Below are positions 372 to 9,523 of a DNA stretch of 64,000 bases, piece after piece. How positions within the stretch are numbered: the stretch's first letter is position 1; each line of letters begins with the position of its first letter. Origin of the DNA: a bacterium (GTDB lineage: Bacteria; Myxococcota; UBA727; JAUIJE01); the NCBI GenBank assembly GCA_030431455.1, contig JAUIJE010000010.1, positions 62,001 through 126,000 on the forward strand, read 5' to 3'. Made by a program: the position numbers and the translations under genes. A model generated the notes under the pieces. It searched no databases. It had not been told where the DNA came from and saw only the letters and a program-made list of their open reading frames with translations.

Positions 372-854
372 ATGGGCCGCCCCATCTCCGGTGAATATCG
401 CCTCGGTCGCCAACTCCTGTTCGGCGTGCCGGACCCCTCTGGGCTCGACTTGCACTTCGAGCTCGAGCCATCGCGGGTGGTCTGCACCTTCGACCCCAGC
501 CGCCACCAACCCAAGCGCCTGCGGGTGGTGCCGTCGGGTTTGATCCAGGCGGTGTGCGACGACCTCGCCCACGCCACCATCGCCGCCCTCAAAAAACGCC
601 TGGGCGTCATCCGCGAAAGCCGGGTGCGGTTTTTGCGCCCCCTGTACGCCCAAGAGTCATACCGGGCCGGGGCGACCCTCGCCGCCGACGCCGACGAGGG
701 TGTGCTCCGCATCGCGGTGGAGTTCAAAAACGGCAAGGGCGCGGTGGTGATCGACGGCGAGGTCCAGGTGTTCTTGCTCTCGGCCGAGCAGGTGCGCCGG
801 ATGTCGCCGGACGGCATGATCCCCCTGCCCCTGCAACGGTTCTTTCCCGGATGA
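372..854 (+). CDS. Hotdog-fold (PaaI/acyl-CoA thioesterase-like) protein
   Basis: A 160-residue protein starting at ATG 372. The N-terminal half has the central-helix region of a hotdog fold (GLIQAVCDDLAHATIAALKK), and the C-terminal half has the strand pattern RVRFLRPLYAQESYRAGATL followed by a strand rich in V and E. This resembles PaaI/YbgC-type thioesterases acting on acyl-CoA substrates. The usual HGG active-site segment is replaced by PSGLIQAV, so hydrolase activity is uncertain and a binding or regulatory hotdog protein is possible. Its TGA overlaps the ATG of the large regulator downstream (ATGA), so the two are probably co-translated. Confidence 0.6.
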   Translation: MGRPISGEYRLGRQLLFGVPDPSGLDLHFELEPSRVVCTFDPSRHQPKRLRVVPSGLIQAVCDDLAHATIAALKKRLGVIRESRVRFLRPLYAQESYRAGATLAADADEGVLRIAVEFKNGKGAVVIDGEVQVFLLSAEQVRRMSPDGMIPLPLQRFFPG

Positions 855-3800
855 GCGAGGCCGCGTCCCCACGTCCCGGCCGCGCTTTTGTGGAAAGCGA
901 AGAGGTCCAGGTCGTGCTCTCCCTGCACGACGACCGGGTCAAGCGCGGCGGGGGGCTGGTCTTGCTCGAAGGGCCCCGCGGGGTGGGCAAGGGGTCGATC
1001 CTCGCGCAGGTGCGTTCGGACCTCGCCGCCCGCGGCCGGCTGGTGCTGTTCGGTCGGGCCGAGCGGACCGGGACCCGGGCCTACGCCGCCCTCGTCGAGC
1101 CGGTGGCCCAGGCCATGGCCTTTCTCGAGAGCCGGGGCTTGGCCGAGTCGTTCCTCGAGACGCACACCCACGCGCTCTCGGTGCTGCTTCCGCGCCTGGC
1201 CCCCGGGGGCCCCCCGGCGCGGGCCCGGGACAAGGTCGGTTTTTTCGAATCGTTGCGCGCGTTTTTCATCGACCTCGCCCACCACACCCCGCTCACGATT
1301 CTGCTCCTCGACCTGCACTATGGCGACGAGGACACCCGCGACCTCGTCCGCTTCTTGTGCCAGCACCTGTTCGCCCCCGAGCGCACCGTGGGCGCGGCCG
1401 ACGACGGCTTCAACGGCGTGCTCATCGCCGCCAGCCGCACCGACGACGAGGACGGGGCGCTTTTGGTGCAGTCTTTGGCCAAGAGCCCCGACGTGGCCCG
1501 GCACGAGATCGGCGGCCTCAACAAAGAGACCTTGCTGCGGTATCTCAAAGACCATCCCGCGGTGGACCGCCTGCTGCACTCCAGCAAAGGCCGCCCCGAC
1601 GACGTCGATGAACTGCTCAGCGCCATTCCCGAAAATGCAGAAGCATTGTTCGCGGTCCGGCTCGAGCAGCAGACCCCCCTGGCCCGGCGCATCCTTCAAG
1701 CCCTGGCCACCGTGGGCACCCCCGCCACCGTCGATCTGCTCGCGGACATCCTCGAGGAAGGCGCGGCCCAAGTGGCCAATGCCCTGTCCACCTTGGTGCG
1801 GGACCGCATCCTGGTCCGGCGGCTCAAGACCGGCGAGCTGCTGTTCGCCTTCCGCCGCACCCACGACCTGGAGACGGTGGTGCGCAACGCCGACCCCACC
1901 GACAAAAAGACCCTGCACCACCGGGTGGCCGAGGCCCTCTCCGCCCGCGACCCCGACAGCGAACGGCAGCGCATCGCTTTGCACTATTTGCGGGGCCACA
2001 CCCCCGCCGCGGGCACGCCCCACGCCCTCGAGGCCTGCGCCGAACTTTTGATGACCTTTTCTTACGGCGCGGCCGCGGCCCTGGCCGAGCGCGCCCTGCC
2101 CTACGCCGAGGGCGAAGACCGGTTCGTCCTCCTCGGCCACCTCGTCGGGGCCCGCCGGCTCAAGGGCGACCTCCGGGGCGCCCAAGAGGCGGCCGAGGAC
2201 TGGATCGCGGCCTGCCCCCCGGGGGAAAAAGCCCGGGTGTTGCGCGAGGTGGGCGATCTGTTCGACAAGGCCGGCGACCGCAAAGACGCCCTCCGCGTCC
2301 TCGAGCAGGCCCTCCTGGTCGCGCAGCAAGACCAGGTCGAGTCCCGCGACGGCATCCCCGAGTCCGCCCTCATCCTCTCCACCATGGGCCGGGCCCTGTA
2401 CGCCGACGGCGACCTCGCCCGCACCGCCCAACTCGCCGACGACGCGCTGGCCCAGACCCCCGACACCGCGCCCCCCGCCTTCCTCTGGGAGCTCAAGAAT
2501 CTTCGCGCCAAGGTCGCCTACCTGCACGGCGACCTCCCCAAAGCCGAACAAATGTTCCTGCGCAACCTCGACTTTGCCGACCACGAGGCGCTCAAGGAGC
2601 AGGCCACCCAGTCGCGCATCAACGTCGGCCTGTGTCGCCTCCACAGCGGCAACGTGGCCGAGGCCCTCGACGTGATGCGCGCGGCCCTCGTCGACGCCCG
2701 CGCCACCGGCAACATCCGCATCCAGGCCGGCGCGTTGGTCAATCTCGCCGTGTGCGAACAACGCATCTGCCGCTGGGGCGACGCCGTCACTCATTTCTTG
2801 AGCGCGCTCAGCCTCTTTTCCCGCCTCGGCAACCGCAAAGAGGTCCGCCGCACCGCCTGGAACCTCGCCAACCTGTTCTGTGCCCTCGGCGACCGCGACC
2901 GCGCCCGCCTGTACCTCGACCAGAGCCGGCGCATCTCGGAGGCCGACGACTCCGATCGCGGCCGCGCCTTCGTGTGCTTCACCGAAGGCGACCTCGCCCT
3001 CGACGACGGCCAGGTGGGCGCAGCGATCTCCAGCTACGAGAAGGCCCGCGCCCTGTTCGCCAGCCTCAACGAGAAAAAGCGCGTCGGCGAGATGACGATC
3101 AAGTCCGCGTGGGCGTCCATCGAGCTGCGCGACCTCGCCACCGCCAAGGCCCGGCTCGCCGACCTCGATGACTTTTCCGACGACGAGATGTTCACCGCGC
3201 GCAAAAACGCCCTCGCCGGGGCCCTCCTCGCCCTCGGGGAAAGCCCGGCCCCCGCCCAGACCCCGGCCGAGGGCCTCGGCCTTCTCGCCCAGGCGGTCGA
3301 CACCTTCGAGCGGGCCCACGCCAACGAAGACCTCCTGCGCGCCCTGCTGTTCATCGCCGCCCGCTATGCCGAGATGGGCGATGAGCGCAGCGCGGTCAGC
3401 GCCCGCGACCGGGCTCGTCACGTCGTCGACGAAATCTCCTCCCACTTGACCGGCGACCTCGCCGAACAGTTCACCAACCACCCCCTGACCCTCAAGCTCC
3501 GCCAAAGCGACGTCGCCCCCCACCCCGCCCCCGAGGAGCCCAGCGCGGTCGACGACGACCTCGCCATCCGCCGCGGCCCCGACCGGCGCACCGACGAATG
3601 GAACGAACGCTACGGCCGCCTCATCGGCCACTCCCCGGCCCTGCTCCGGGTGTTCGAGCGGCTCGATCGCATCACCCGCAGCCACCAACCCACCGTGCTC
3701 GTGCGGGGCGAGAGCGGCACCGGCAAGGAGCTCGTCGCTGCGGCTATCCACCATTTGGGCGAGCGCAAAGAGGGCCCCTTCATCCGGGTCAACTGTGCCG

Positions 3801-4663
3801 CGTTGGTCGAGACCCTGTTGCTGTCCGAGCTGTTCGGCCACGAAAAGGGCAGCTTCACCGGGGCCTTCGCCCGCAAGATCGGCCGCTTCGAGCTCGCCCG
3901 CGGCGGCACCATCTTCCTCGACGAAATCGGCGACATCTCGCCCAAGACCCAGGTCTCGCTGTTGCGCGTCCTGCAAGAGCGCAGCTTCGAACGCGTCGGG
4001 GGCGGCACCACGATCAAGACCGACGCCGCGGTCATCTGCGCCACCCACCGCGACCTCGAGCAGATGGTGGCCGAAGGCACCTTCCGCGAGGACCTCTACT
4101 ACCGCCTGCGCGGGGTGGTCATCGAGGTCCCGCCCCTGCGCGAGCGGCCGCAGGACATCGCCCCCCTCGTCCACCACTTCTTGTCCCTGGCCCACGACGA
4201 GCTCGGCCGCGCCCCCACCAACCTCACCCCCGAGGCCGAGCGCGTGCTCACGCGTTACGCGTGGCCGGGCAACATCCGCGAGCTGCAGAACGTCGTGCGC
4301 AGCGTGGCGCTGTTCTGCGAAGACGACACCGTCGACGTCGCCCACCTCCGCGAGTTCCCCGAGCTGTTCGAGGGGCGCCCGGTGGTGATCAAGGGCGGTG
4401 ACCGCGCCGATCACACCCCGGCCACGGCCTCTGCGGCAGTGCTCGATAAGGTGCGCGAGCAGGCCAGCGCCGAGGGCATGGCCCTGGGCGATCTCAAGCG
4501 CAAACTCGAGTTTGAGGCCATCGCCGACGCCGTCCGCCAGACCGGGGGCAACATCACCCGGGCGGCGAAGTTGCTCAAAATGAAGCGCCCCCGACTGTCC
4601 CAAATCGTGAACAGTGATCCGGAGCTCAAGCGGATCAAAGACGCCAGCCGCGCCACCCGCTGA
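851..4663 (+). CDS. AAA/TPR/sigma-54-dependent transcriptional activator with Fis-type HTH
   Basis: A 1270-residue regulator. Start ATG 851 is chosen because it overlaps the previous stop; the frame stays open further upstream only as a shadow. Order of domains: an N-terminal ATPase with Walker A GPRGVGKGS near residue 40 and a hydrophobic Walker B-like LTILLLDL; about 500 residues of helical TPR-like repeats (residues ~380-870); a sigma-54 interaction AAA+ domain (~920-1150) with Walker A GESGTGKE near 953, GSFTGA near 1000 (the sigma-54 loop, usually GAFTGA), Walker B FLDEIGD and the sensor segment WPGNIRELQN; and a C-terminal Fis-type helix-turn-helix (GGNITRAAKLLKM). There is no receiver, GAF or FHA domain, so input probably comes through the STAND/MalT-like ATPase-TPR part. 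Target genes are unknown; the lipoprotein gene just downstream is a candidate. Confidence 0.85.
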   Translation: MSEAASPRPGRAFVESEEVQVVLSLHDDRVKRGGGLVLLEGPRGVGKGSILAQVRSDLAARGRLVLFGRAERTGTRAYAALVEPVAQAMAFLESRGLAESFLETHTHALSVLLPRLAPGGPPARARDKVGFFESLRAFFIDLAHHTPLTILLLDLHYGDEDTRDLVRFLCQHLFAPERTVGAADDGFNGVLIAASRTDDEDGALLVQSLAKSPDVARHEIGGLNKETLLRYLKDHPAVDRLLHSSKGRPDDVDELLSAIPENAEALFAVRLEQQTPLARRILQALATVGTPATVDLLADILEEGAAQVANALSTLVRDRILVRRLKTGELLFAFRRTHDLETVVRNADPTDKKTLHHRVAEALSARDPDSERQRIALHYLRGHTPAAGTPHALEACAELLMTFSYGAAAALAERALPYAEGEDRFVLLGHLVGARRLKGDLRGAQEAAEDWIAACPPGEKARVLREVGDLFDKAGDRKDALRVLEQALLVAQQDQVESRDGIPESALILSTMGRALYADGDLARTAQLADDALAQTPDTAPPAFLWELKNLRAKVAYLHGDLPKAEQMFLRNLDFADHEALKEQATQSRINVGLCRLHSGNVAEALDVMRAALVDARATGNIRIQAGALVNLAVCEQRICRWGDAVTHFLSALSLFSRLGNRKEVRRTAWNLANLFCALGDRDRARLYLDQSRRISEADDSDRGRAFVCFTEGDLALDDGQVGAAISSYEKARALFASLNEKKRVGEMTIKSAWASIELRDLATAKARLADLDDFSDDEMFTARKNALAGALLALGESPAPAQTPAEGLGLLAQAVDTFERAHANEDLLRALLFIAARYAEMGDERSAVSARDRARHVVDEISSHLTGDLAEQFTNHPLTLKLRQSDVAPHPAPEEPSAVDDDLAIRRGPDRRTDEWNERYGRLIGHSPALLRVFERLDRITRSHQPTVLVRGESGTGKELVAAAIHHLGERKEGPFIRVNCAALVETLLLSELFGHEKGSFTGAFARKIGRFELARGGTIFLDEIGDISPKTQVSLLRVLQERSFERVGGGTTIKTDAAVICATHRDLEQMVAEGTFREDLYYRLRGVVIEVPPLRERPQDIAPLVHHFLSLAHDELGRAPTNLTPEAERVLTRYAWPGNIRELQNVVRSVALFCEDDTVDVAHLREFPELFEGRPVVIKGGDRADHTPATASAAVLDKVREQASAEGMALGDLKRKLEFEAIADAVRQTGGNITRAAKLLKMKRPRLSQIVNSDPELKRIKDASRATR

Positions 4664-4737: not shown

Positions 4738-4753
4738 TGGTATGTTCCTTGTA
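4738..4753 (+). promoter_or_regulatory. Weak candidate -24/-12 (sigma-54) promoter
   Basis: The 16 bases resemble the sigma-54 consensus TGGCAC-N5-TTGCA. They have TGG at 4738-4740 and TTGTA at 4749-4753, with the correct 10-base gap between the GG and the -12 pair. The invariant GC of the -12 element is GT here, which usually weakens such promoters strongly. Its place downstream of a sigma-54 activator gene and about 100 bases upstream of the lipoprotein start is the only extra support. Confidence 0.2.
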
Positions 4754-4856: not shown

Positions 4857-6164
4857 ATGCTGCGCAACACGACAACACCTTTGACGCGATGGGTCCTGGC
4901 GATGACCGCCGGCGTCGCGCTGTTGTCCGCGTGTGGCCCCGACCAAGCCGGCCAGGCTTGGCCGGAAGAGTTCGGCCCCCTCACCGAGGTTCGGCCCGAG
5001 GTCGTGCTCGACGGCGTCGGCGACGTCACCCAGGTGCTCGGGCACCGCGTGTTGTTCGACGAGGTGGAGCTGCAGGCGCAGTCGGTGTCGCTCAGCGGTC
5101 CGCGCGCGCGCGACCTGCTCGCCGACGACGCCCTGATGTTCTCGATGCGCGCCGGCGACACCGCCGGCACCGCCGCCACCGACGCGCGTTGGTGGGACCT
5201 CACCGGGGCGGGGGGCGAGACCCTGTCGTTCCGGTTCGGCGACGATGAGGAAGGCTTCTCCGTCCGCGTGCACGGCTTCATCGCCCGCACCGCTCTCGAC
5301 CATGACGCGCTCGACGGCGTAGACGGCAGCGCCACCCTCACCGGCTCGTCCGTGGCCAGCGGCGACCCCGACGGCATCCCCATGACCGCCGGCGGCGACC
5401 CCGACGGCATCCCCATGAGCGGCGGCGAAGACGACGACGATGACGCGGACGACGACGAGAGCGGCGACCCCGACGGCATCCCCATGAAGTCATCCGGCGA
5501 CCCCGACGGCATCCCCATGGACGCGTCCGGCGACCCCGACGGCATCCCCATGAAGTCCTCGGGCGACCCCGACGGCATTCCCATGGACGGCACCGCCGGC
5601 GACGACGGAGGCCGTGAGCCCACCGTCGACTTCATCGACCCCGAAGACGAGACCTCCGGCGACCCCGATGGCATTCCCATGGACGACGGCGAAGATGACG
5701 ACGGGGACGACGAGAGCGGCGACCCCGATGGCATCCCCATGGACGGCAAGACCGGCCACGGCGAAGTCGGCAACGTCGACGTGGGCCCCAACGTGGACGG
5801 CACCAAAGGCGGCGCCAAAGGCCACGACGCGCCCGGCGACTACGGCAACCAGATGCTGCAGGACCAACAGCGCGGGGGCGAGCAAGACTTGGTGCCCTTC
5901 GTCATCGTCATCCCCGAATCGTTCCTCGTCGAGGCGACGCTCCCCTACGAGCTGCCCAGCGACGAAGCGCTGCCCCTCGCGCTCCGGGTCGACGCCCGCC
6001 TGTTGCTCACCGACAGCGTGCTCGAGCGCATGCGCGACCTGTACGACGGCGAGAACACCGTGGTGACCACCTCGTCCGACTCGATGGCCTTCGCCCTCGA
6101 CACCGACGACGAGGAGGCCGAGAAGATCGACCTCACCGGTCGCGAGCCCCGCCCCGAGCACTGA
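4857..6164 (+). CDS. Lipoprotein with eight GDPDGIPM octapeptide repeats
   Basis: A 435-residue predicted outer-envelope lipoprotein. ATG 4857 gives a signal peptide with lipobox LLSAC (Cys near residue 25) and sits behind a purine-rich AGAGGG stretch; a TTG 21 bases upstream would put charged residues in front and is rejected. Residues ~30-165 form a predicted beta-rich domain that I do not recognise. Residues 169-295 hold eight copies of GDPDGIPM separated by Ser/Lys or strongly Asp/Glu-rich spacers. The rest is a second beta-rich domain (VPFVIVIPESFLVEATLPY) and an acidic tail. The repeat has the DxDG core seen in calcium-binding loops, but calcium binding is only an inference. It stands alone between the sigma-54 regulator and a convergent gene. 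Function unknown. Confidence 0.8.
   Translation: MLRNTTTPLTRWVLAMTAGVALLSACGPDQAGQAWPEEFGPLTEVRPEVVLDGVGDVTQVLGHRVLFDEVELQAQSVSLSGPRARDLLADDALMFSMRAGDTAGTAATDARWWDLTGAGGETLSFRFGDDEEGFSVRVHGFIARTALDHDALDGVDGSATLTGSSVASGDPDGIPMTAGGDPDGIPMSGGEDDDDDADDDESGDPDGIPMKSSGDPDGIPMDASGDPDGIPMKSSGDPDGIPMDGTAGDDGGREPTVDFIDPEDETSGDPDGIPMDDGEDDDGDDESGDPDGIPMDGKTGHGEVGNVDVGPNVDGTKGGAKGHDAPGDYGNQMLQDQQRGGEQDLVPFVIVIPESFLVEATLPYELPSDEALPLALRVDARLLLTDSVLERMRDLYDGENTVVTTSSDSMAFALDTDDEEAEKIDLTGREPRPEH
5361..5741 (+). repeat. GDPDGIPM coding repeat array (8 copies)
   Basis: Eight 24-base units each encode GDPDGIPM, in four groups separated by acidic or Ser-rich spacers of unequal length. Copies differ at silent positions (GAC/GAT for the second Asp, ATC/ATT for Ile) while the peptide is invariant. 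That pattern indicates selection on the protein sequence and not recent slippage. Confidence 0.9.
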
Positions 6165-6254: not shown

Positions 6255-6623
6255 TTAAGGCCGGTCGTCGACGGGGGCGTAGAGGGCCAGGCCGAAGGCC
6301 GAGAACATCACCGCGCTGACCACCAGATGCCGCACCGGGGGCGCGTCGATGCCCGCGGTGACGAAGGGGATAGCGGTGAGCACGAGCAAGGGCAGCTGGC
6401 TCAGCACCCCGGCCAGGGGCCTTCGCGGGAAAAAGGCCGCGAACGCCACCGCCCCCAGCAGCGGGGCCAACAGATACAAAAAGCCCGCGCCGGTGGTGCG
6501 CACGTGGGCGTGCAACGCCAGCACGTAGGGCGCCCAGGCGGACGCGGCGATCACCACCCGCAGCGGGCGGTACCGCAGACGGGCCGCGATGAACGCGCGG
6601 AGCGTGGTCAGTTCACTTCCCAC
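6255..6623 (-). CDS. Small multi-pass membrane protein overlapping korB
   Basis: A 122-residue hydrophobic protein with about four predicted membrane segments (around VVIAASAWAPYVLAL, FLYLLAPLLGAVAFAAFF, LPLLVLTAIPFV and LVVSAVMFSAFGLALY) and Arg-rich turns. The start is a GTG at 6623 that overlaps the last 16 bases of korB, so translation is probably coupled. It closes the kor operon. I do not recognise the family. A role near the oxidoreductase or in ion or metabolite movement would be a guess. The main doubt is whether it is a real gene; the coherent membrane pattern and the overlap favour that it is. Confidence 0.5.
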   Translation of the reverse strand: MGSELTTLRAFIAARLRYRPLRVVIAASAWAPYVLALHAHVRTTGAGFLYLLAPLLGAVAFAAFFPRRPLAGVLSQLPLLVLTAIPFVTAGIDAPPVRHLVVSAVMFSAFGLALYAPVDDRP

Positions 6624-7639
6624 ACGTCGCCGGAGAAGAGCAGCTTTTTCAGGTCGGGGGCCCCGCGTTTTTCCAGGGCGACCTTGCCTTGCTCGATGAC
6701 CTGGGCGTCGTAGGCCGGCCGCTCGCTTTGGCGGAACAGCCCGATGGGCACGGGGAACTGAGGATGGTCCATGTGCGCAAGCAAGTGGCCGAGCACGCCG
6801 CTGGCGTCGTTCTCGTCGTGCACCATGATGTCTTCGGCCCGGGCGGGTTCTTTTTCGAGGTCCACGATCACCGGGCTCATGGTGGTCTTGTCGAGGGCGA
6901 TGCCCTTCTTGCCGTCCGCGAACAGCCAGGGCTTGCCGTGCTCGAGGTAGAGGGCGTGCTCGACTTTTTGTTTCTTGTCGGTCACGTACTCAAATGCATT
7001 GTCATTGAAGACGACGCAATTTTGGTAGATTTCGATGAAGGACGTGCCCTTGTGGGCGTGGGCCTTCTCCAGCACGTCGAGCATGTGCTTGGCGTCGCGG
7101 TCGATGGTGCGGGCGTAGAAGCTCGCCCCCGCGCCCAGCGCGAAGGCCGCGGGGTTGACCGGGTAGTCGAGCGACCCGAGGGGCGTGGACTTGGTGATCT
7201 TGCCCTGTTCACTCGCGGGCGAGTACTGGCCCTTGGTCAGGCCGTAGATGCGGTTGTTGAACAACAGCACGGTGACGTCGAGGTTGCGCCGCAACAGGTG
7301 CAGCATGTGATTGCCGCCGATGGACAGCGCGTCCCCGTCGCCGGTCACGATGAAGACGTGCAGGTCGGGGTTGGCCAGCTTCAGGCCCGTGGCCACCGCC
7401 GGGGCCCGACCGTGGATGGAGTGCATCCCGTAGGTCTCCATGTAGTACGGGAACCGGGCTGCGCAGCCGATGCCCGAGATGAACACGATGTTCTCTTTGG
7501 GCACGCCCAGGCTGGGCAGGAACTTCTGGATGTTGGCCAGGATGGCGTAGTCGCCGCACCCGGGACACCAACGCACGTCGTTGGGGGTCTGGAAGTCCTT
7601 GCGGGTCAGCTTCACCAAGTCAGGGGGATCAAGTGGCAT
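6608..7639 (-). CDS. korB: 2-oxoacid:ferredoxin oxidoreductase, beta subunit (thiamine-PP binding)
   Basis: A 343-residue beta subunit. CPGCGDY near residue 25 and GIGCAARF near 56 carry cysteines of the single 4Fe-4S cluster. GDGDALSIGGNH followed by a downstream NNRIYGLTKGQ is the thiamine-diphosphate and Mg2+ site. The enzyme oxidatively decarboxylates a 2-oxoacid to the acyl-CoA and passes electrons to ferredoxin. Length and the pairing with a fused gamma-alpha subunit match the two-subunit KorAB (2-oxoglutarate) type of aerobes and microaerobes, which replaces or supplements the lipoamide complex in the TCA cycle. Substrate (2-oxoglutarate versus pyruvate) is inferred from architecture. 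A GGAG ribosome site precedes the ATG, 42 bases after korA. Confidence 0.9.
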   Translation of the reverse strand: MPLDPPDLVKLTRKDFQTPNDVRWCPGCGDYAILANIQKFLPSLGVPKENIVFISGIGCAARFPYYMETYGMHSIHGRAPAVATGLKLANPDLHVFIVTGDGDALSIGGNHMLHLLRRNLDVTVLLFNNRIYGLTKGQYSPASEQGKITKSTPLGSLDYPVNPAAFALGAGASFYARTIDRDAKHMLDVLEKAHAHKGTSFIEIYQNCVVFNDNAFEYVTDKKQKVEHALYLEHGKPWLFADGKKGIALDKTTMSPVIVDLEKEPARAEDIMVHDENDASGVLGHLLAHMDHPQFPVPIGLFRQSERPAYDAQVIEQGKVALEKRGAPDLKKLLFSGDVWEVN

Positions 7640-7681
7640 TGTGAGTCTCCGCGTCCGCGGTGCTTGGAATCAGATTCGGGG

Positions 7682-9523
7682 TCAGGCTTTGAGGGCGGCC
7701 TCGATGGCGTCTTGGACCTCTTGCACCAAGAACGGCTGGCCTTGGACCTTGGTGAAGCTCTGGGCGTCGACGAGGTACTCGGCGCGCAACAACCGCCACA
7801 GCTGGCCTTTGTTGAGCTCGCACACCAGGACCTTCTTGTACCGGCCGAGCACGTCGCCGAGGTCTTTGGGGAAGGGGTTGAGCCAGCGCAGATGCACTTG
7901 GCCGACCTTGTGTCCGCCGGCGCGGGCCTTTTCGACCCCCACGTGGATGCTGCCGTAGGTGCCGCCCCAGCCCACCACCAAGATGTCGCCGTCCTCGTCG
8001 CCCTCGACGTAGGTGGGCGGGATGTCTTGCTGCACCCGGGCGACCTTCTCGGCCCGGATGTCGCACATCTTCTGGTGGTTGATCGGGTCGTAGCTGACCT
8101 CGCCGGTGAGGAAGTCCTTCTCCAGGCCCCCCACCCGGTGCTCGAGGCCGGGGGTGCCGGGCTTGACCCAGGCGCGCGCCAATGTGGCTTCATCCCGGGC
8201 ATAGACCTGGTAGCCCTCTTTTTCCGTGCGGAAACTCACCGGGATGTCCGGGATGGTGTCCGGCTCGGGGATTTTCCAGGGCTCGGCCCCGTTGGCGATG
8301 TAGCCGTCGCTCATCAGCACCACCGGGGTCATGTACTTCACCGCCACCTTCACCGCCTCGATGGCGGCGTAGAAGCAGTCGGCGGGCGACTTGGCCGCGA
8401 TCACCGGGACCGGCGCGTCGCCGTTGCGGCCGTACATGCACTGCAACAGGTCGGACTGTTCGGTCTTGGTGGGCAGCCCGGTGGAGGGGCCGCCGCGCTG
8501 GACGTTGACCACCACCATGGGGATCTCGAGGATGTGGGCCAGGCCCAGGGCTTCGCCCTTGAGGGCCAACCCGGGCCCCGACGTCGAGCACACCCCGATG
8601 GCGCCGCCGTAGCTCGCCCCGATGGAGGCGGCGATGGCCGCGATCTCGTCCTCGGCCTGGAACGTCACCACGCCGTAGTTCCGGTACTTGGCGAGGTTGT
8701 GCAGGATGTCGGACGCGGGGGTGATGGGGTAGCTCCCGAGCACCAGCGGCACGCCCGCTTTCTGGGACGCGGTGACCAGGCCGGTGACCAGGGCGACGTT
8801 GCCCATGATGTTCCGGTAGACGCCCGGCTCCATCTTGGCCTTCTCGACCTTGTAGGTCTCGCCGAACATCTCGGTGGTGTCGCCGTAGTGGTACCCGGCC
8901 TTGAACGCCTTGATGTTCGCCTCGGCGAACTGCGGCTTCTTCGCAAACTTCTGCTGAATCCACTCCACCTGGCGCTCGGTGTCGCGGTTGTACAGCCAGT
9001 AGAGCACGCCAAGGGCCCAGAAGTTCTTTGAGCGGGCGATCTCTTTGGTGGATAGCCCCATGCCGTCGAGGGCGAGGGCCACCTGCTTTTCCATCGCGAC
9101 CTTGAACACCCGGTGGCGTTCGTTGAGCGCGTCATCGTCGAGGGGGGACTCCGCGTAGTCGACCTTCTTCAAGTTCGCGCTGGTGAACGCATCTTCATTG
9201 GCGAGCACGATGCCGCCGGGCTTGAGGTCGCCGATGTTCTTTTTGAACGCGGCCGGGTTCATCGCCACCAGGACGTCCGGGGCATCGCCGGGGGTGTAAA
9301 TGGCCGAACTCGCGAAGTGCAGCTGGAAGCCCGAGACCCCCGCCAGCGTGCCCGCGGGCGCGCGGATCTCGGCCGGGAAGTCCGGGAAGGTGGCCACGTC
9401 GTTGCCGGCCAGGGCCGCCGACCGGGTGAACTCGGTGCCGGTCAGCTGCATGCCATCGCCGGAGTCGCCCGCCAGGCGAATCACGACCTTTTCACGAATC
9501 TGCGGCGCTTCTGCCCCCGCCAT
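7682..9523 (-). CDS. korA: 2-oxoacid:ferredoxin oxidoreductase, fused gamma-alpha subunit
   Basis: A 613-residue fusion. Residues ~1-190 are the gamma domain (VIRLAGDSGDGMQLTG near the start). The remainder is the alpha pyrimidine-binding domain, with SYPITPASDIL, AEDEIAAI and VCSTSGPGLALKGEALG and, further on, RGGPSTGLPTKTEQSDL. It forms the CoA- and thiamine-binding half of the enzyme with KorB. The ATG is preceded by AGGAGG at good spacing. Gene order korA-korB-membrane protein is a single minus-strand operon, divergent from a 2Fe-2S ferredoxin gene 112 bases away, which may be an electron acceptor partner (inference). Confidence 0.9.
   Translation of the reverse strand: MAGAEAPQIREKVVIRLAGDSGDGMQLTGTEFTRSAALAGNDVATFPDFPAEIRAPAGTLAGVSGFQLHFASSAIYTPGDAPDVLVAMNPAAFKKNIGDLKPGGIVLANEDAFTSANLKKVDYAESPLDDDALNERHRVFKVAMEKQVALALDGMGLSTKEIARSKNFWALGVLYWLYNRDTERQVEWIQQKFAKKPQFAEANIKAFKAGYHYGDTTEMFGETYKVEKAKMEPGVYRNIMGNVALVTGLVTASQKAGVPLVLGSYPITPASDILHNLAKYRNYGVVTFQAEDEIAAIAASIGASYGGAIGVCSTSGPGLALKGEALGLAHILEIPMVVVNVQRGGPSTGLPTKTEQSDLLQCMYGRNGDAPVPVIAAKSPADCFYAAIEAVKVAVKYMTPVVLMSDGYIANGAEPWKIPEPDTIPDIPVSFRTEKEGYQVYARDEATLARAWVKPGTPGLEHRVGGLEKDFLTGEVSYDPINHQKMCDIRAEKVARVQQDIPPTYVEGDEDGDILVVGWGGTYGSIHVGVEKARAGGHKVGQVHLRWLNPFPKDLGDVLGRYKKVLVCELNKGQLWRLLRAEYLVDAQSFTKVQGQPFLVQEVQDAIEAALKA

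Follow-up and report, generated by a model that had tools for sequence, protein, structure and literature searches.

A conserved repeat array in an exported myxococcotal lipoprotein encoded beside a sigma-54 activator

The window, a 64,000-nucleotide stretch of DNA from a member of the Myxococcota, carries a lipoprotein gene in which the octapeptide GDPDGIPM is repeated eight times, and this array is real and conserved. Computation showed the array itself, its conservation, the pairing of its gene with that of a regulator, and an enrichment of promoter-like sites. On balance, and with modest confidence, we favor the reading that the array consists of multiplied copies of a short linear motif, carried by the exported lipoprotein partner of a sigma-54 activator. 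A regulator with a co-encoded exported partner and a repeated linear motif are both known kinds of arrangement; a literature search returned no description of the motif or of these peptides. By the results below, the odd repeat of one gene becomes a testable unit that extends across the phylum: a regulator, its exported partner and a short conserved motif.

The carrier gene lies at 4857–6164 on the plus strand, begins with the ATG at 4857 and encodes 435 amino acids, as judged from the open reading frame and its orthologues. Its first part (4857–4934, plus strand) specifies a lipoprotein signal peptide, read from the sequence, with the lipobox LLSAC and a predicted lipidated Cys26 that is conserved among orthologues. 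The array occupies 5361–5741 (plus strand) in a region predicted to be disordered; variable spacers, either acidic or of Ser/Lys, lie between the eight GDPDGIPM copies, which all start in frame, at 5361, 5394, 5463, 5496, 5529, 5562, 5658 and 5718. None of them is mismatched, compared with a chance expectation of 0.06 matches at up to three mismatches, which confirms the eight copies reported by the first-pass annotation, and a search of the 7.7-Mb genome showed that the GDPDGIPM-encoding pattern is confined to the array. That annotation had also relied on silent codon variation among the copies as evidence for selection. Such variation is present but modest: five of the eight copies are identical in DNA, and because only the codons for the second Asp and for Ile vary, the window alone provides weaker evidence than was first thought. 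Convergent with the lipoprotein gene, on the minus strand (6608–9523), is a gene pair for a 2-oxoacid:ferredoxin oxidoreductase (TPP_enzyme_C; POR_N/POR).

The lipoprotein, previously described as an orphan, has orthologues in six other Myxococcota genomes. A protein search identified orthologues in two genomes of the same order, and profile searches brought the total to six, four of them in the same order (G003, G006, G008 and G010) and two in other families of the phylum (G017 and G025). A first contig scan of a genome collection gave no match; a second gave four orthologues and one Chloroflexi contig, and the named contig records matched were Myxococcales and Deltaproteobacteria MAGs. The Chloroflexi MAG contig (L030, 329–1888) was rejected, as it encodes an unrelated secreted-type protein with a DPDGTP-rich linker before a C-terminal hydrophobic segment, which is a convergence in a low-complexity linker. 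The N-domain profile gave weak matches, as did the full profile in G191, and we discounted these as noise.

The position of the array is the same in all six orthologues. It consists of five copies of GDPDGNPA or GDPDGTPA in G006, ten of VDPDGT[PA]A in G008, six of ADPDGAPA in G003, six of VDPDGTPA in G010, three of VDPDGEPA in G017 and two of VPDTAPA in G025, so that the DPDGxP arrays of orthologues range from 3 to 10 copies. The proposed invariance of the octapeptide is therefore true within the window gene, but relatives keep DPDGxP and change the first, x and last residues; copies are near-uniform within a gene and differ at these three positions between species. In G003 (locus L020, 8503–9780), the repeat is a 17-residue unit, DADPDGAPADGVGGDVG, which is present in near-perfect copies at the protein level and is the longest and most regular unit observed in the family. 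The G010 orthologue (locus L021, 8994–10201) has its repeat region and its C-terminal part in different frames, reflecting a frameshift in either the gene or the assembly, which comprises 1,270 contigs.

Comparison of copy against copy yielded pN and pS values of 0 and 0.161 in the window, 0.022 and 0.554 in G006, 0.018 and 0.232 in G008, 0 and 0.181 in G003, 0 and 0.450 in G010, and 0 and 0.095 in G017, where the selection of copies by motif pattern lowers pN. These pS values show that the silent sites of the copies have diverged well beyond the protein sites. Selection on the peptide is supported by the contrast across the six species (pN 0–0.02 versus pS 0.10–0.55) and by a related pentapeptide that forms the most conserved part of syntenic short lipoproteins, but the earlier claim of selection on the exact octapeptide is not, because the I and M positions vary between species. 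The same values bear on the alternative that the array is a flexible acidic spacer, grown by replication slippage and lacking a specific partner, whose uniformity reflects recent homogenization. We consider this alternative unlikely: five of the eight window copies share the same DNA, G003 has its near-perfect 17-residue repeats, DPDGTP arose convergently in the Chloroflexi linker and single DPDGxP motifs are common across these genomes, all as a spacer would allow, whereas pN stays near 0 while pS reaches 0.55 (G006) and 0.45 (G010), and short lipoproteins retain PQDPIP although their remaining tail has diverged.

Beta domains had been noted on both sides of the array. Beta-rich parts do flank it, the first predicted at 4983–5354 (residues ~43–166) and the second, from structure prediction, at 5889–6071 (residues ~345–405), both on the plus strand, but they appear to be a single predicted MbnP-like fold that is interrupted by the array. 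The structure model of the window protein has a mean pLDDT of 42 and is usable for coarse secondary structure only. For the G025 orthologue, whose insert is short, the model has a mean pLDDT of 58, a modest confidence that makes it usable in the core; its pLDDT is about 59–86 at residues 31–160, 63–76 at residues 231–290, and below 50 across the array region (166–230). With this modest model as query, six MbnP chains lead the Foldseek list (E 1.2e-3 to 7.2e-3). MbnP from Methylosinus trichosporium (PDB 7l6g) resembles most of the folded part of the orthologue model, and VIA comparison with this model gave a Z of 8.8 and an rmsd of 4.3 over 184 residues with 18% identity, at low TM-scores. In the model, the array seems to be inserted in a loop of a single MbnP-like fold to which both beta parts belong. 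We do not claim membership of MbnP, from which the lipoprotein differs in the array inserted in its fold, the low TM-scores and the missing sequence-family match: no Pfam or NCBIfam family scored above noise for any of the seven lipoprotein members, and a PDB sequence search with the lipoprotein gave no match.

Calcium-dependent folding, suggested earlier from the DxDG in the unit, was not supported. Each unit contains two Asp and one Gly, the spacers are rich in Asp/Glu, and thrombospondin type 3 repeats, EF-hands and dockerins likewise have Asp-x-Asp-Gly within the repeat. In contrast to these repeats, the array unit has only D1 and D3 and is devoid of the remaining ligand positions, which is not enough to complete an EF-hand or TSP3 loop; searches with EF-hand, dockerin and TSP3 profiles gave no match to the lipoprotein, the motif in its phylum-wide form (QDPIP) has no second Asp-Gly, and the region is predicted to be disordered. 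A repeat that binds calcium and folds on binding is thus very improbable.

The gene preceding that of the lipoprotein in the window (851–4663, plus strand) encodes a regulator consisting of an AAA_16 ATPase, a MalT-like TPR region, a sigma-54 activator domain with the sequence GSFTGA, and a Fis-type HTH. Its open frame begins with a GTG at 554, and the ATG at 851 is the probable start. The activator domain matches PF00158 (E 8e-66), and the protein combines the hallmarks of sigma-54 activators, namely an AAA+ sigma-54 interaction domain, a GAFTGA loop and a Fis HTH. Many Myxococcota have regulator orthologues of the same architecture whose tail is similar to KMKR[PS]RLSQIV; the G[AS]FTGA loop is present in every orthologue checked and HTH_8 in several, TPR_12 is found in the regulators and TPR_MalT in three of four, and the length is 1,236–1,315 aa (about 1,270 aa). 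An AAA_16 ATPase at the N-terminus with a MalT-like TPR region behind it is also found in STAND ATPases that have a MalT-like TPR sensor, such as MalT; however, the output of the regulator consists of a sigma-54 activator domain and a Fis HTH, not of the LuxR-type HTH that is the output domain of MalT.

The array lipoprotein is encoded by the next gene after the regulator in the window, G006, G017 and G025. In most genomes checked the regulator precedes a lipoprotein gene, and the two often overlap or nearly do so; in other families, the gene after the regulator usually encodes a short lipoprotein without the folded part. The regulator is unlinked from the lipoprotein in G003 and G010, was not found in G008 by the regulator orthologue search, and is present in G191 with no lipoprotein downstream.

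DP[IVA]P or DPDGxP was found in 27 of the 31 lipoproteins downstream of the regulator, compared with 0.96 motif carriers on average, and at most 6, in 2000 rounds of residue shuffling of the mature parts, under a motif definition set after part of the data had been seen. The motif as defined is absent from the lipoproteins of G183, G034, G019 and G025, of which the last has VPDTAP twice. These proteins occur in short (81–126 aa) and long (275–435 aa) forms, and an alignment of 22 short lipoproteins contains, at ≥80% consensus, little beyond the lipobox CG and PQDPIP. The short forms hold the motif without the MbnP-like fold, which suggests that the motif, rather than the fold, is the constant element. 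An independent search of 195 genomes for the LPQDP[I/V]P DNA pattern gave 19 single matches. By coordinates, 14 of them are located immediately downstream of the regulator; one more (G103) comes after the LSQIV tail of the regulator, and the remaining four (G047, G071, G145 and G147) were rejected as lying in unrelated frames. A single DPDGxP motif is uninformative, because the pattern is too common in these genomes. From synteny, position and composition, and not from an alignable ancestor, we infer that DPDGxP and QDPIP are the same motif.

Some of the downstream lipoproteins depart from these forms. In G181 (L074), the gene of the short lipoprotein is interrupted by an in-frame stop downstream of the lipobox, and in G183 (L084) the reading frame diverges from the usual sequence shortly ahead of the motif; either case may reflect decay of the gene or an error in the assembly. 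The G019 lipoprotein (L085, 4872–5810) has a different array, three copies of HPTPSPD, where others have that of DPDGxP, and carries ADPDGIRP close to its N-terminus.

A sigma-54 (−24/−12)-like promoter, TGGTATGTTCCTTGTA, was detected by −24/−12 scoring at 4738–4753 (plus strand), upstream of the lipoprotein gene. Sites upstream of this gene score 14.1–14.5 of 16.5 in all five genomes of the order that were scanned (window, G006, G003, G008 and G010), and a score of 14 is reached by 0.5% of random segments in the window and by 2% at the other loci, the sites themselves included; the scheme was set after part of the data had been seen and adjusted after the first scan, so that the promoter figures are indicative. 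Lower scores were obtained upstream of the regulator (10.8 in G003, 11.8 in G006 and 13.7 in the window). In families with overlapping or nearly overlapping genes, it is the regulator that has good sites upstream, such as TGGCACGCCGGTTGCT in G134, and operon upstream regions reach 14 in 10 of 24 genomes, most of them genomes with overlapping genes, compared with a background of 4.8%. Judged from the sequence, the lipoprotein would be under sigma-54 control in both gene layouts, and the neighboring activator presumably acts at these promoter-like sites. Such sites precede the lipoprotein gene, or the operon when the genes overlap, so that the dedicated sigma-54 regulator encoded beside the exported lipoprotein probably switches the lipoprotein gene on.

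In the mechanism that we propose, the eightfold GDPDGIPM would be the order-specific, multiplied form of a conserved motif with the core D-P-[I/V]-P or D-P-D-G-x-P, located in a disordered segment of an exported lipoprotein whose genetic partner is the AAA_16/TPR sigma-54 activator. The activator would drive the lipoprotein gene through the −24/−12 promoter; the product would be exported and lipidated, and its motif would be recognized by a putative binding partner, with extra copies providing higher valency or dose. The motif would thus serve as a docking site, and its partner may reside in the cell envelope. Array length and the residues outside the core would drift between species and be homogenized within the gene by concerted evolution, while the core would be held by selection. 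Myxococcota include social and predatory members and possess numerous sigma-54 regulators whose inputs are unknown; should the motif serve this widespread activator as its input or its main output, it would open a regulatory circuit in the phylum.

A different role, as a processed signal, is attractive because a small exported protein encoded beside a TPR receptor is what the published RRNPP signature requires (PMC10075063). The lipoprotein would then be a multi-copy precursor, similar to that of alpha-factor: the unit would be excised from it and, after uptake, would bind to the TPR domain of the neighboring regulator, and the regulator would in turn activate the sigma-54 promoter of the precursor. 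As in the Rap-Phr, PlcR-PapR and NprR-NprX pairs, a TPR regulator directly adjoins the gene of a small exported protein and the promoter-like sites suggest feedback; in addition, the unit is identical within a gene and species-specific at defined positions. Among the five published criteria, TPRs are present, adjacency is observed with the exceptions of G003, G010 and G191, and the lipobox indicates export. However, these criteria specify a receptor of 250–500 aa and a propeptide of 10–100 aa, with the genes directly adjacent and the exported product matured to a short peptide that the receptor binds (PMC10075063), whereas the receptor here, with its AAA_16, sigma-54 and Fis domains, has at least two and a half times that length, and the short lipoproteins are borderline in length and the long ones exceed the range. 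The precursor would moreover be a lipoprotein. Its units are not flanked by dibasic or other obvious processing sites, no system for uptake was identified, and QDPIP is almost constant throughout a whole taxonomic family, as a species-specific signal would not be. Published RRNPP systems come from Firmicutes and their mobile elements, whereas the present pairing is in a Gram-negative phylum. We regard this RRNPP-like logic as quite unlikely. Slightly more doubtful is a full peptide-signaling circuit in Gram-negative Myxococcota, in which the large AAA_16/TPR sigma-54 activator would respond to a peptide released from the exported lipoprotein that is its partner, with eight signal copies per precursor in the window lineage. 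Where the regulator is unlinked from the lipoprotein, in G003 (L057) and G010 (L060), the next gene after it is one that we take to encode CTP synthase.
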